Assembly (NCBI GenBank): GCA_937949545.1 | Contig: CALEDR010000006.1 | Location: 1 to 64,000, forward strand | Source: an uncultured Phycisphaerae bacterium | GTDB taxonomy: Bacteria > Planctomycetota > Phycisphaerae > Sedimentisphaerales > Anaerohalosphaeraceae | Length of the DNA: 64,000 bases | Reading direction: 5' to 3' | In this document: in pieces, positions 26,249-34,123 of the stretch | How the letters are laid out: each line of letters starts with the position of its first letter | How positions within the stretch are numbered: the stretch's first letter is position 1 | Notes under the pieces: generated by a model | Told to the model about the DNA's origin: nothing | What the model saw: the letters and a program-made list of their open reading frames with translations, nothing else | The model's database searches: none | Position numbers and translations under genes: made by a program

Positions 26249-29107
26249 TTACACGTTTCTTTCTTCGGCCAGTTTTTCCCGCAGATATCGGGCAGTGTAG
26301 GAGTGGTTGTTTTCGATAATTTTTTCCGGAGTCCCGGCGGCAATGACCTGTCCGCCTTCCTCGCCGCCTTCGGGGCCTAAGTCGATGATATAGTCGGCCA
26401 TTTTGATGACATCCAGATTGTGTTCAATGACGATGACGGTGTTGCCCATATCGGTCAGACGGCGCAGTACAGTCATCAGGTTGTCAATGTCGGCAAAATG
26501 CAGACCGGTGGTGGGTTCGTCGAGGATATAGAGGGTATGGCCGGTGCCGGGTTTGCCCAGCTCGGCGGCCAGTTTGACCCGCTGGGCTTCGCCGCCGGAC
26601 ATCGTGGTGGAAGACTGCCCGAGGGTCATATAACCCAGCCCGACATCGCACAGGGCCTTGATAAGCCGGAGAATCTTGGGAAAGTTGGCAAAAAATTGCC
26701 GGGATTCATCAATCCGCATATCCAGAACGTCCGCAATATTCTTGCCTTTGTAGGTAATCTGGAGGGTTTCGGGATTGTAGCGTTTGCCTTTGCACTCCTG
26801 ACAGGTGACGTACACATCCGGCAGGAAGTGCATTTCAATCCGGCGGGTCCCCTGGCCCTGGCAGAATTCGCAGCGGCCCCCTTTGACATTGAAGCTGAAG
26901 CGGCCGGGTTTGTAGCCGCGGATGCGGGCCTCGCGGGTCATGGCGAACAGCTGGCGGATTAAGTCAAACACGCCTGTATAGGTCGCCGGATTGCTGCGGG
27001 GCGTGCGTCCGATTGGGCTTTGGTCAATTTCAATGACCTTGTCGATGTTGGAGATGCCGAGGATGTTTTTGTGTTTGCCCGGTTTTTCGCGGGAGCCGTA
27101 GAGCCGGCGTTTGAGACCCTTCAGGAGGATTTCGGTAATCAGGGTGCTTTTGCCGGAACCGGAAACGCCGGTGACGCAGGTGAGCACACCGAGCGGAAAT
27201 TTGACATCGATATTTTTCAGATTGTGTTCGGCGGCTCCGCGGACTTCGATGCAGTAAGACATTTTGACTTTGTGCCGGCGCGGGGGCATTTCGATGCGTT
27301 TGGCTCCGCTGAGGTATTGTCCGGTGATGGACTGGGGGCATCGGCAGACATCCTCCAGCGAGCCGGCGACTACGACTTCACCGCCGTGGCTTCCGGCGGC
27401 CGGTCCGATATCAATGATGTAGTCGGCCTGTCGGATGACCTCTTCATCGTGTTCGACGACCAGCACGGTGTTGCCGATGTCACGCAGACGCTTGAGGATA
27501 TTCAGGAGCCGGTCGTTGTCGCGCCGATGCAGACCGATGGTCGGCTCATCGAGAACGTAGCAGCAGCCGACCAGCCCGCTGCCGACCTGCGTGGCCAGGC
27601 GAATCCGCTGGGCTTCGCCGCCGGAGAGCGTGCGGCTGGTGCGGTCTAAGGTCAGGTATCCTAAACCCACATCAATCAGGAATTGAAGCCGGGCCCGGAT
27701 TTCCTTCAGGGGCTGTTCGGCAATAACGGCCTGTTCGGGATTCAGCGGCAGTTCAGCAAAGAATTTCTGGGCAGCCTGCACGGTCATTTCGGTAATCTGG
27801 CTGATGTTTTTACCGCAGATGGTTACGGCGGAGGCCTCCGGACGCAGCCGTGTTCCTTTGCAGGATTGACAGGGCGTTTCGGACAGATAGCCGTGCAGGC
27901 GGGCCTTGACATATTCGCTGGTGGTGTTCTCCCAGCGTCTGCGGAGATTGGGAATGACCCCCTCGAATGCCATTCCGTAACGGGCCTCGTCTTCGGGTGT
28001 GGTTCCGTAGAGGAGAATCTGCCGAATCGGCGCGGGCAGATTGTTGTAGGGTTCGCTTTTGCTGATGCCGAACTGCCGGCAGAAGCGGTTGATAAGCCGA
28101 TTGTAGTAAATGTTCATCCGTTTGCCGCCTTTTCGCCAGGCCTCTATGGCTCCGTTTTCGAGCGAGACGGATTTGTCCGGCACGATTAAGTCCGGGTCAA
28201 ACTCGAGGATGGTTCCCAGTCCATCGCAGGCCGGACAGGCGCCGTAGGGGCTGTTGAAGCTGAACAGCCGGGGGCTCAGTTCCGGCAGGGAGGCCTCCGG
28301 ATGTTCAGGACAGGCGAATTTTTCGCTGTAGATGACGTCGCGCCACTGGCCGTCGCCGCCGTTGTCTTTTTTCTCTTCGGGTGTCTGCACCATCACCAGG
28401 ACGAGGCCATCTCCGATTTTCAGGGCGGTTTCGATGGAGTCGGCCAGCCGGATGCGGATGTTGTCTTTTAAAATCAGCCGGTCCACGACGGCGGCGATGT
28501 CGTGTTTTTTGTTTTTGTCCAGTTTGGGGATGTTTTTGATGTCATAGATGACGCCGTCCACCCGCGCCCGGACGAAACCGTCCCGCTGAATCTGGGCGAA
28601 AATGTCCCGGTGTTCCCCCTTTTGGCCGCGTACAATCGGGGCGCAAATCTGAATGCGGGTGTTTTCCGGCAGAGACAGGATGGAATCGACAATCTGGGTG
28701 GCGTGCTGCGACTGAATCGGCCGGCCGCATTTCCAGCAGTGGGGCTGTCCGATGCGGGCAAACAGCAGGCGGCAGTAATCGTAGATTTCCGTCGTGGTTG
28801 CCACGGTCGAGCGGGGATTGCTGGAGGCGCTTCGCTGTTCGATGGCGATCGTGGGAGGCAGCCCCTCGATGTGCTCGACGTGGGGTTTCTGCATCTGTTC
28901 GAGGAACTGGCGGGCGTAGGCGCTGAGGGATTCGACGTATTTGCGCTGGCCTTCTGCGTAGATGGTATCAAAGGCCAGCGAACTTTTTCCCGAACCGCTC
29001 AAGCCGGTAATAACAACCAATTTGTCGCGGGGAATATCGACGTTGATGTTTTTGAGATTATGTTCGGCCGCACCGCGAATGCGGATGTATTTCTGCGAAT
29101 CATTCAT
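26249..29107 (-). CDS. uvrA: Excinuclease ABC subunit A
   Basis: 952 residues, full length. DNA-damage-recognition ATPase of nucleotide excision repair. Two ABC modules are visible: Walker [14 protein letters not shown] near residue 36 and [13 protein letters not shown] in the second half, with signatures [12 protein letters not shown] and [12 protein letters not shown] and Walker B stretches ending in DEPTIGLH and DEPTTGLH. The second zinc finger CEFCQGQG...CQECKGKRY is intact, as is the first (CPEHPEA...CPACDG). I take ATG 29107; the frame also has a TTG at 29116. It shares a short intergenic region with the repair gene nfi. Confidence 0.97.
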
Positions 29108-29175
29108 CGTTGTCAAACCTGTTTCGAGGTTGATGCTCTCTTATCTCCATTTAAAGAGAATACGCCAAACTTACC

Positions 29176-29205
29176 ATTGTACCGGAAAAAACGGCCGTGT
29201 ACAAT
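29176..29205. promoter_or_regulatory. Symmetrical bidirectional promoter between uvrA and nfi
   Basis: ATTGTAC (29176-29182) and GTACAAT (29199-29205) form a perfect 7-bp inverted repeat. On the plus strand this reads TTGTAC - 17 bases - TACAAT toward nfi; on the minus strand it reads the same toward uvrA. Each hexamer thus serves as -35 in one direction and -10 in the other. A second possible uvrA promoter, TTGGCG-17-GATAAG, lies at 29140-29168 on the minus strand. The palindrome might also be a repressor site. Confidence 0.55.
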
Positions 29206-29240
29206 AGCCGGGCTGGTTTTTTGCAGGATGCGATAAGACT

Positions 29241-29915
29241 GTGCATATTAAACACTTACATTCGTGGCAGGTCAGCCCGAAAGAGGCCGCATCGATTCAG
29301 AGCCGGCTAGCCGGGCGTGTTCAGTTTTGCCCGCTTCCCAAACTCATCCGAACGGTTGCCGGTCTGGATTGTGCTTTCAGTGGAGACGGTTTGCAGATTG
29401 CAGCGGTAATTGTGGTGGTGTCGTTTCCGCAACTGGAGGTGCTGGAAGTGGTGCAGGCTTGGGATAAGGTGAGGTTTCCGTATGTGCCGGGTCTTCTTTC
29501 GTTTCGCGAAGCGCCGGTCTGCCTGAAGGCCGCCGAGAAACTCCGCACCCGACCCGATGTGTTTCTCATTGACGGACAAGGGATTGCACATCCCCGATGG
29601 CTGGGCTTAGCTTCGCATCTGGGGCTGTGTCTGGATGCCCCGGCCATCGGGTGTGCCAAAAGCCGCCTGTGCGGAGTGTATGAAGAACCCAAAACAGAAA
29701 AAGGCAGCTGGAGTCCCCTTTGGATGGATGGTCAAACCGCGGGGGCTGTGGTGCGAACCCGCAGAGGCGTAAAGCCGCTGTTTGTTTCCGTCGGGCATCG
29801 GGCGGTTCTGGAGGAGGCAGTTGAATTTGTGCTGGCCTGCTGTCGGGGGTACCGTCTGCCGGAGCCGACGCGTCTGGCCCATCAGCAAGTCAGTCTGCTG
29901 AAAAAACAACTTTAA
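29241..29915 (+). CDS. nfi: Endonuclease V (deoxyinosine 3'-endonuclease)
   Basis: 224 residues. Cleaves DNA one base 3' of deaminated adenine (hypoxanthine). Conserved parts: AGLDCAFSGDGLQIAAVIVV with the metal-binding Asp, FPYVPGLLSFREAPVCLKA with the Glu, FLIDGQGIAHPRWLGLASHLGL, and AIGCAKSRLCGVYEEP. It lacks the usual YP of the wedge motif in exact form, but the PYVPG loop is present. The GTG at 29241 is the only usable start because the nearby ATG at 29229 meets a stop at once. The ribosome site AGGA is about 12 bases away, so initiation may be weak. Confidence 0.93.
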   Translation: MHIKHLHSWQVSPKEAASIQSRLAGRVQFCPLPKLIRTVAGLDCAFSGDGLQIAAVIVVVSFPQLEVLEVVQAWDKVRFPYVPGLLSFREAPVCLKAAEKLRTRPDVFLIDGQGIAHPRWLGLASHLGLCLDAPAIGCAKSRLCGVYEEPKTEKGSWSPLWMDGQTAGAVVRTRRGVKPLFVSVGHRAVLEEAVEFVLACCRGYRLPEPTRLAHQQVSLLKKQL

Positions 29916-30506: not shown

Positions 30507-32261
30507 ATGAACCGAAGAGGATATCTGGGGATTTTTGTTTTTCTTTGCGGTTCGCTGGTCTTAGCGGCCCGGCAGCCCGCGGAGAATTTGGACAGGGGAT
30601 TTCTTGCGGTGGTTCAGTCTCCTTCGCGGGTGTATCTGGGCTGGCGGCTGCTGAAAACGGACCCGGCGGACATAGCGTTTCATCTCTATCGGCTCACAGA
30701 CGGCGGCGAGCCCGTCAAGCTCAACTCCGAGCCGATTACGGATTCCACGAATTTTGCGGATGAATCCGCCCCGCTGGATAAGCCCAACCGCTGGCGGCTG
30801 ACGGCGGTTCTCGGAAACGGCGAAGAAAAGGAGGCGGCGACGGTTGACCTGCCAGCCAATCCCCCCATGCGTTCCTATATCTCCATTCCGTTTCAGGGCA
30901 ATTATATCTGCAGCAAGGTTGCCATGGCCGACCTGAACGGCGACGGCCGATACGATTTTGTTATCAAGCAGCCGCAGCAGACGACCGACCCAGGGGTCTG
31001 GCAGAAAAGCACCGATACGTTCAAGGTCGAGGCCTATCTTCACGACGGTACGTTTCTTTGGCGCAAGGACCTCGGGTGGAATATTGAACAGGGGGTCTGG
31101 TGGTCGCCGATGGTGGTTTTTGACTTTGACGGAGACGGCCGGGCGGAGGCGGCCCTCAAGACGGCCCCGACCGATGTCGATTACCGCAACCCCGAGGACC
31201 ATCCCTATCCGGGCCGGGTGATGTCCGGGCCGGAGTATGTGTCGCTGCTGGACGGGATGACCGGCCGGGAACTGGACCGGGCCGACTGGCCTGCCCGCGG
31301 ACGCGTGGAGGACTGGGGCGATGAGAAAAACAACCGTGCCTCTCGCCACCTGCTCGGGGTGGCCTATCTGGACGGTGTTCGTCCGAGTCTGATTGTTCTG
31401 CGAGGCACTTATACACGCATGCGAGTGGACGCCTACCATCTCGTGGACCGCCGATTGCAGAAGGTTTGGAGTTGGGACGGCGATACAGAGGAGCCGCCGG
31501 TACGCGGGCAGGGAATGCATGGAATGCACGCGGCCGATGTGGATGGGGACGGGCGTGATGAAATCATTTTGGGGGCGGCCGTACTCGATGACGATGGAAA
31601 GATTCTCTGGAATACCGGTCTGGGGCACCCGGACGCCTGTTATGTCACGGATATTTATCCCCAGCGGCCCGGCCTGGAAATCATTTATGGAATTGAACCG
31701 CCGCAGAGGAAAAACGGCATTTGTGTTGTGGATGCCAAAACCGGAGAGATTCTCTGGGGCTGTCCGCATCCCACTACGCACGTTCATAGTCAGGGCTTAT
31801 TCGGCGAGTTTGACCCGGACAATCCGGGATATGAGTTTTATACCGGCGAAAAGGACCGTTCGAAACACTGGACCTACAGTGTGGACGGACGTTTGCTTTC
31901 GGAAGAGTCGATGAGCTCTCTGGCTCCGACGTCGCTGTACTGGCTGGACGGGCCGCTGAAGATGATTGCCGAGCAGGGGCAAATCCGCCGATATAAGGGG
32001 GAAGCGGTGGACCGATACGAAGGGCGCATTTTGGCTGCGGCGGATATTCTGGGCGACTGGCGGGACGAACTGATTACCACCGTACCGGGGGAGCTGCGGA
32101 TTTATACAACGACGCATCTTTCCCAGCAGCGGCGGACTGCCCGGATGCAGGATCCCATTTATCGGCTGGACGTCGCGATGGTTTCGATGGGATATTTTTA
32201 TCCGCCGCAGCTGAGCGAGTATTTTGCGTTGGATGTTCCGCCGGAGGTTCAGAAACAGTAA
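30507..32261 (+). CDS. Secreted rhamnogalacturonan lyase, PL11 family
   Basis: 584 residues with an N-terminal signal peptide (YLGIFVFLCGSLVLAA). PL11 enzymes cut the rhamnose-galacturonate bond of the pectin RG-I backbone by beta-elimination. The N-terminal beta domain has LDRGFLAVVQSPSRVYLGWRLL. It is followed by the eight-blade propeller with repeated calcium-binding D-x-N/D-G-D-G-x-x-D loops (ADLNGDGRYDFVIKQ, FDFDGDGRAEAALKT, ADVDGDGRDEIILGA), EDWGDEKNNRASRHL and ILGDWRDELITT. AGAGGTG precedes the ATG. It lies 14 bases before a second PL11 gene with which it shares the overall plan. Confidence 0.92.
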   Translation: MNRRGYLGIFVFLCGSLVLAARQPAENLDRGFLAVVQSPSRVYLGWRLLKTDPADIAFHLYRLTDGGEPVKLNSEPITDSTNFADESAPLDKPNRWRLTAVLGNGEEKEAATVDLPANPPMRSYISIPFQGNYICSKVAMADLNGDGRYDFVIKQPQQTTDPGVWQKSTDTFKVEAYLHDGTFLWRKDLGWNIEQGVWWSPMVVFDFDGDGRAEAALKTAPTDVDYRNPEDHPYPGRVMSGPEYVSLLDGMTGRELDRADWPARGRVEDWGDEKNNRASRHLLGVAYLDGVRPSLIVLRGTYTRMRVDAYHLVDRRLQKVWSWDGDTEEPPVRGQGMHGMHAADVDGDGRDEIILGAAVLDDDGKILWNTGLGHPDACYVTDIYPQRPGLEIIYGIEPPQRKNGICVVDAKTGEILWGCPHPTTHVHSQGLFGEFDPDNPGYEFYTGEKDRSKHWTYSVDGRLLSEESMSSLAPTSLYWLDGPLKMIAEQGQIRRYKGEAVDRYEGRILAAADILGDWRDELITTVPGELRIYTTTHLSQQRRTARMQDPIYRLDVAMVSMGYFYPPQLSEYFALDVPPEVQKQ

Positions 32262-32275
32262 ATTGGGGGATTTGT

Positions 32276-34123
32276 ATGAATTTTCGCTGGATGTGCGTGT
32301 GGATTTTGCTGACGAGCGCGGGCTTATCCGCTCAACAATGCCAGCGGCAGATGGAGGCCCTCGACCGGGGGCTGGTTGCCGTTGTGGACAAAGCCGGCCG
32401 GGTCTTTCTGAGCTGGAGGATTCTGGGGACCGAACCGGAGTCGATCGCTTTTGATGTGTATCGGCAGACCGAAGACGGTGAGCCGGTTCGGCTGAATGAA
32501 AAGCCCCTGACCGGCGGGACGTGGTTTTCGGATGAGACGGCGGATTTGACGCGGACGAACCGCTATTTTGTGCGGGCGGTTTCGGACAGGCGTCAGGGCC
32601 CTCCATGTCGGGCCGCGGAGGTAAAGGCCAATCCGCCGGTGCGTCCGTTTTTATCGATTCCGATTCAAACGCTGCCGCGGCATCGTCCTTCGGATGCGGC
32701 GGTCGGAGATTTGGACGGCGACGGACGATACGAAATCGTCCTCAAGCAGGAGATGCGTCCGCGGGATAATGCGCACAACGGGCTGACCGGCCAGACCAAA
32801 CTGGAGGCGTATGACCTGGACGGACGATTTCTGTGGCGGATTGACTTGGGCAAGAATATCCGCGAAGGAGCCCACTATACGCCGTTTCTTGTCTATGATT
32901 TGGATGGAGATGGGCGGGCGGAGGTAGCCGTGCGCACAGCCGACGGCACGGTGGACGGCACCGGCAAGGTCATCGGCGACCCGAATGCCGACTGGCGCGA
33001 TGAGAACGGACGAGTCCTTCAGGGTCCGGAGTATCTGACGATTTTTGACGGGCGAACGGGTGCAGAACTGGTCACGGTCCCCTATATTCCGCCGCGCGGA
33101 AATGTGCGGGACTGGGGGGATGCGAACGGCAACCGCTCAGACCGGTTCCTGGCCTGCGTTGCCTATCTGGATGGAGAGCGTCCTTCGCTGGTGATGTGCC
33201 GCGGGTATTATACGCGGGCGGTGCTGGCGGCCTGGAACTGGCGGGATGGGAAGCTGACGAATCTGTGGGTTTTTGACAGCGATGCGGGCCCCCAGAGCAA
33301 TCGGGCTTACCGCGGACAGGGCAATCACAATCTGGCTGTCGGCGATGTGGACGGCGACGGCAGGGACGAAATCCTCTACGGGGCCTGTGCGATCGACCAC
33401 GACGGCAGGGGCCTGTATTCAACCGGTTTGGGGCACGGGGATGCGATGCATCTGGCGGATATCGACCCGGAGCGGCCGGGGCTGGAAATCTTTGCCATCC
33501 ATGAAAACCCGCGTCATCCGAACGGGGCCAATCTGCGGGATGCGGCGACCGGCCGGGTTCTTTGGGGGCTGGATTCGAGAGATGTTGTGCGCGGGATTGC
33601 GATGGATATTGACCCGCGGCATCGCGGGTATGAATGCTGGGCCTTCGGCAGCGGCCTGCAGGGTTTGTACAGCTGCAAAGGAGAAAAGATTGCCGAGCGT
33701 TCGCCCCGCTCCTGCAATATGGGGATTTGGTGGGACGGCGACCTGCTGCGGGAGCTGCTCAACGGAACGCGGATTACCAAGTGGGATTTTGAAAATCAGA
33801 CGGAAACGGTTTTGCTGGACAGCTGGGATTCTGACTGTATCCGCGTGAACGGCTCCAAATCCACGCCTTGTTTTTACGGGGATATTTTGGGCGACTGGCG
33901 AGAGGAGGTCATCTGGCCGACACTGGACGGCAAGGAGCTTCGTATTTTTGTTTCGACACATCCGACGGAGCATCGTTTTTATACCCTGATGCATGACCCG
34001 ATTTATCGGCTCAGCACCGCCTGGCAGAATGTCGGCTACAACCAGCCGACGCAGGTGAGTTTTTATCTGGGCGACGGGATGTCCGCTCCGTCCCGCCCCC
34101 AAATAAAAACCCCCAGGCCCTGA
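32276..34123 (+). CDS. Secreted rhamnogalacturonan lyase, PL11 family (second copy)
   Basis: 615 residues, signal peptide MCVWILLTSAGLSAQ. Same architecture as the preceding gene: LDRGLVAVVDKAGRVFLSWRIL, then propeller Ca2+ loops GDLDGDGRYEIVLKQ, YDLDGDGRAEVAVRTADG, GDVDGDGRDEILYGA, and RDWGDANGNRSDRFL and ILGDWREEVIWPT near the C-terminus. The loop RTADGTVDGTGKVIGDPNADWRDENGRVLQGPEYL is longer than in the first copy; in PL11 such loops help separate endo- from exo-acting enzymes, so the pair may be complementary. GGGGGA ribosome site. Its last codons lie within the terminator of the convergent E1 gene. Confidence 0.92.
   Translation: MNFRWMCVWILLTSAGLSAQQCQRQMEALDRGLVAVVDKAGRVFLSWRILGTEPESIAFDVYRQTEDGEPVRLNEKPLTGGTWFSDETADLTRTNRYFVRAVSDRRQGPPCRAAEVKANPPVRPFLSIPIQTLPRHRPSDAAVGDLDGDGRYEIVLKQEMRPRDNAHNGLTGQTKLEAYDLDGRFLWRIDLGKNIREGAHYTPFLVYDLDGDGRAEVAVRTADGTVDGTGKVIGDPNADWRDENGRVLQGPEYLTIFDGRTGAELVTVPYIPPRGNVRDWGDANGNRSDRFLACVAYLDGERPSLVMCRGYYTRAVLAAWNWRDGKLTNLWVFDSDAGPQSNRAYRGQGNHNLAVGDVDGDGRDEILYGACAIDHDGRGLYSTGLGHGDAMHLADIDPERPGLEIFAIHENPRHPNGANLRDAATGRVLWGLDSRDVVRGIAMDIDPRHRGYECWAFGSGLQGLYSCKGEKIAERSPRSCNMGIWWDGDLLRELLNGTRITKWDFENQTETVLLDSWDSDCIRVNGSKSTPCFYGDILGDWREEVIWPTLDGKELRIFVSTHPTEHRFYTLMHDPIYRLSTAWQNVGYNQPTQVSFYLGDGMSAPSRPQIKTPRP

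Follow-up and report, generated by a model that had tools for sequence, protein, structure and literature searches.

The window, meaning the whole 64,000-nucleotide stretch of DNA analysed, carries two divergent DNA-repair genes, uvrA and nfi, on either side of a 133 nt intergenic gap that contains a 30 bp palindrome. Reading of the sequence confirmed the palindrome that the first-pass annotation had placed between two repair genes, and Pfam matches showed its names for the flanking genes to be correct. Positions 29176-29205 of the window read ATTGTAC CGGAAAAAACGGCCGT GTACAAT, that is, ATTGTAC-N16-GTACAAT, within which TTGTAC (29177-29182), 17 bp and TACAAT (29200-29205) give the same reading on either strand. 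The genes and the proposed promoter parts are as follows.

26249-29107, minus strand: uvrA, excinuclease ABC subunit A, 952 aa, ATG start at 29107 (PF17760 and PF17755; domains UvrA_inter and UvrA_DNA-bind)
29168-29172, minus strand: predicted uvrA transcription start, near A29171/G29170, placed by its distance from the -10; a conserved AGTTTG lies there
29176-29181, minus strand: putative uvrA -10, TACAAT, kept order-wide upstream of uvrA with or without nfi
29176-29205, no strand assigned: palindrome ATTGTAC-N16-GTACAAT, probable core of both promoters, unique in the genome; both -10s in 42/48 nfi-adjacent relatives
29177-29182, plus strand: putative nfi -35, TTGTAC, 17 bp from its -10, read from the sequence and from the third-base C of the uvrA -10 in family f7
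29199-29204, minus strand: putative uvrA -35, TTGTAC (TTTAC in most relatives), 17 bp from its -10, seen in the alignment anchored at the uvrA -10; its TT persists with and without nfi
29200-29205, plus strand: putative nfi -10, TACAAT (TAAAAT in most relatives), in 42/48 nfi-adjacent versus 11/71 other genomes
29210-29213, plus strand: predicted nfi transcription start, near G29211/G29212, placed by its distance from the -10
29241-29915, plus strand: nfi, endonuclease V, 224 aa, GTG start at 29241 (PF04493, E 1.6e-73)

Orthologues of UvrA that are 71-99% identical over nearly full-length alignments were found in most of 40 relatives, and the GTG start of nfi matches that of aligned relatives. 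At L007 (G001:C14), UvrA residues 1-130 are just 65% identical to those of the window, compared with 85% for the whole protein. Downstream of nfi, positions 30507-34123 hold two neighbouring similar ORFs, the first a rhamnogalacturonan lyase of family 11 and the second looking like the first.

The element in the genome

With spacers of N14-18 allowed, the palindrome is the sole exact match to its pattern in the 2.84 Mb genome. Sites with at most 3 mismatches number 79 genome-wide, against 24 for a reversed control, and one other site, C33:19386, has a single mismatch. This closest copy (C33:19386-19415, which is L221 1501-1530) places TACAAT about 5 bases ahead of an ATG on the minus strand and, from the start codon just downstream, is apparently a one-way, almost leaderless promoter. 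Perfect 7 bp arms with a 16 bp spacer are not rare (55 in 431 kb of the source genome), so the weight of the finding lies in its position and conservation and not in the palindrome alone. Symmetric -10 pairs occur three times in the same 431 kb; since 1 was observed in divergent intergenic regions versus 0.6 expected, they are not a genome-wide habit and were rejected as a general device of the source genome.

As candidate promoter parts, the -10 hexamers are good (5/6) and the -35 hexamers, TTGTAC, weak by E. coli standards (3/6). A generic sigma-70 scan flagged the uvrA direction alone, as TGTACA-16-TACAAT. The distance between the two -10s is 18 bp in the source genome and 18-20 bp in relatives, and the predicted uvrA and nfi starts are about 42 bp apart.

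Comparison across the order

The uvrA gene was located in 145 of 161 genomes of one order, and its upstream DNA was retrieved and inspected for about 140 genomes; many of the compared genomes are draft assemblies. Divergent nfi was located by tblastn, and the upstream regions were aligned on the uvrA -10. Excluding regions without a credible uvrA promoter and contigs too short to judge, we retained 48 genomes with an nfi start no more than 90 nt from the uvrA -10 and 71 without. A second -10 was scored where the nfi strand, at a distance of 17-20 bp from the uvrA -10, reads TA...T and agrees with TATAAT in at least 5/6 positions. Choice of the uvrA -10 was guided partly by TACAAT and a downstream TTTG, so these letters appear conserved partly by construction; the opposite-strand -10 was not used in the choice.

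In both groups of genomes the uvrA promoter consists of TTTAC or TTGTA, about 17 bp and TACAAT, mostly with TG ahead of TACAAT. On the opposite strand a second -10 (TACAAT or TAAAAT) overlies the uvrA -35, and it is present in 42 of the 48 genomes with nfi near versus 11 of the 71 without (Fisher p=1.5e-15, which overstates independence because the genomes are related). Counting each genus once per state still gave the association (p=6e-10), as did shuffling the labels inside genera (p=0.004) or inside families (p=5e-5, the floor of 20,000 shuffles). By family, the counts with nfi near and not near are 14/19 versus 3/12 in f1, 6/7 versus 2/5 in f2 and 22/22 versus 5/50 in f7. At other gaps, 4 to 44 bp from the uvrA -10, nfi-strand -10s are nearly absent. 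The second -10 sits 25-59 nt ahead of the nfi start codon, and 34 of the 42 genomes have no other good -10 in the 130 nt upstream of nfi. Conservation of both hexamers at nearly fixed spacing in three families of the order contradicts the reading of the element as a chance inverted repeat without function, which the abundance of 7 bp arm pairs in the source genome would otherwise favor; we regard that reading as almost certainly wrong.

Retention or loss can be followed within genera. The second -10 is kept beside nfi, and lost in sister genomes where nfi is gone or displaced, in g28, g49, g50, g62 and g69; it is retained despite nfi displacement in g36 and g66, mixed in g12 and g17, and absent throughout g13. 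It is missing in 6 nfi-adjacent genomes (genera g13, g16 and g23), where nfi must start otherwise. Among the 11 genomes that retain it without a near nfi, 7 carry a same-strand nfi farther upstream.

At ten loci (L127, L120, L122, L129, L099, L106, L076, L108, L096 and L102), from several genera, uvrA and nfi are separated by a gene of about 445 codons that has the orientation of nfi and lies about 300-1700 nt upstream of uvrA. Its N-terminus looks Fic-family-like by eye, and the second -10 is retained in some of these genomes and lost in others.

Two bases of the nfi -10 fall outside the uvrA -35. In f7, AT stands at these positions in 21/22 genomes that have nfi near versus 9/50 without (p=3e-10), and 45 of the 50 f7 genomes without a near nfi retain the TT of the uvrA -35. 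At the third base of the uvrA -10, 21/22 f7 genomes with nfi near have C, versus 36/50 without (p=0.03, or p=0.09 across all families); this C supplies the TTG of the nfi -35 and may be a weak sign of constraint from the nfi side. Under a one-way alternative, the element would be a promoter for uvrA only, the palindrome would come from the near-complementarity of TTGTAC and TACAAT, and nfi would be started elsewhere. Such an arrangement agrees with the sigma-70 scan, which scores the uvrA direction alone, and with C33:19386, which shows a like TTGTAC-17-TACAAT form and looks one-way, but it does not account for bases beyond the uvrA hexamers that are retained with nfi adjacent and lost without it, and we consider it improbable.

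The uvrA leader begins with a stretch, AGTTTGG-N-TTATTG in relatives (window 29148-29172, minus strand), that is strongly conserved across the order, and this conservation extends past the letters used for promoter picking. The leader stretch TAGTTTGGNTTATTG was rejected as a regulon motif, being overall no commoner than a reversed control in six genomes.

Symmetry of the palindrome

Both -10s are TACAAT in the source genus, and both -35s are TTGTAC in the source genome. Nearly all f7 and all f2 genomes have TAAAAT as the nfi -10 and TACAAT as the uvrA -10, so that the symmetry is gone and both -10s remain. Exact 7 bp symmetry is found in 5 of the 42 genomes with both -10s and is absent in the other 37. 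Judged from these alignments, what is conserved is the promoter pair, not the dyad, and the perfect palindrome would be a by-product, because both promoters use TACAAT, a near-complement of the -35 TTGTAC.

The first-pass annotation had also proposed that the palindrome might be a damage-response operator. On such a reading, a dimeric repressor such as LexA would shut both genes until DNA damage. LexA is encoded in the source genome (above the family cut-off), uvrA and nfi are both repair genes, and E. coli provides a precedent in the SOS box between divergent uvrA and ssb (PMC9505508). Against this, a whole-genome pattern search and the upstream regions yielded no exact or one-mismatch palindrome near lexA or recA, and when the palindrome was sought before other repair genes, as the annotation advised, the only other copy with no more than 1 mismatch was at a non-repair locus. 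The second half also decays once nfi leaves, though uvrA would still need an operator. The lost symmetry, the absence of any close copy at lexA or recA, and a -10 spacing that drifts from 18 to 20 bp argue against a dimeric operator. Neither a motif at repair genes nor a dyad conserved among relatives, two marks of a LexA (SOS) operator, was found, and the proposal is left unsupported and in our view very unlikely.

A probable pair of overlapping promoters

The 30 bp element is very probably a fully overlapping, back-to-back pair of housekeeping promoters, of sigma-70 type, for uvrA and nfi. That it would serve as a promoter both ways follows from the nfi half being kept where nfi lies beside uvrA and usually lost otherwise; the original suggestion of interlocked -10/-35 hexamers serving the two genes thus gains support from an nfi -10 that tracks nfi adjacency. 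Each -10 would overlie the -35 of the partner promoter or miss it by one to two bases. A sigma-70-type RNA polymerase would bind in either orientation, one polymerase at a time, and would start transcription either near 29170, leftward into uvrA, or near 29212, rightward into nfi. The transcription starts, recognition by the primary sigma factor and the exclusion of one polymerase by the other are what we infer from this layout, the last because the two footprints would overlap almost wholly.

Overlapping back-to-back divergent promoters, in the wide sense, are those whose polymerase footprints overlap, and the element appears to belong among them, the same DNA holding predicted promoter elements for uvrA and for nfi. 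It differs from that general class in that the uvrA and nfi hexamers coincide almost exactly, and in that the layout is conserved over an order and decays when the partner gene leaves. The statement that the two genes cannot be transcribed at once is reasonable, on steric grounds, as exclusive polymerase occupancy, but not as mutual silencing: in E. coli, the basal activity of five bidirectional promoters was too low for competition, which arose only once one direction was strongly activated (PMC12825309).

Published bidirectional promoters (Warman, Grainger and colleagues) have starts 7-25 bp apart (PMC10268837) and one -10 common to both directions (PMC12825309, PMC10268837). Like them, the uvrA/nfi element would combine a pseudo-symmetrical core with polymerase in two orientations and mutually exclusive binding events (presumably so here), and such promoters often lie between divergent genes of linked function. 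Unlike them, it has predicted starts about 42 bp apart and, in place of a single shared -10, two -10s 18 bp apart (18-20 bp in relatives), each coinciding with the partner's -35; it therefore lies outside the definition of Warman et al. In E. coli, uvrA likewise diverges from a DNA-maintenance gene, ssb, with one control region, but that region has a LexA box and three ssb promoters, whereas uvrA/nfi shows no sign of an operator and has nfi as the partner (PMC9505508); the likeness is one of layout, not of regulator. A literature search on uvrA/nfi divergence, judged by title, found nothing relevant.

It is conceivable, although doubtful, that the element acts as a conserved, order-wide promoter switch whose single polymerase site alternates between uvrA excision repair and nfi deaminated-base repair, in which strong induction of one gene would lower the other. 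As the interlocked -10/-35 geometry falls outside the 7-25 bp definition, surveys with that cut-off would miss the element. The genomes of this order appear to offer a natural series that shows a two-way promoter being reduced to one direction, base by base, with the departure of its partner gene.
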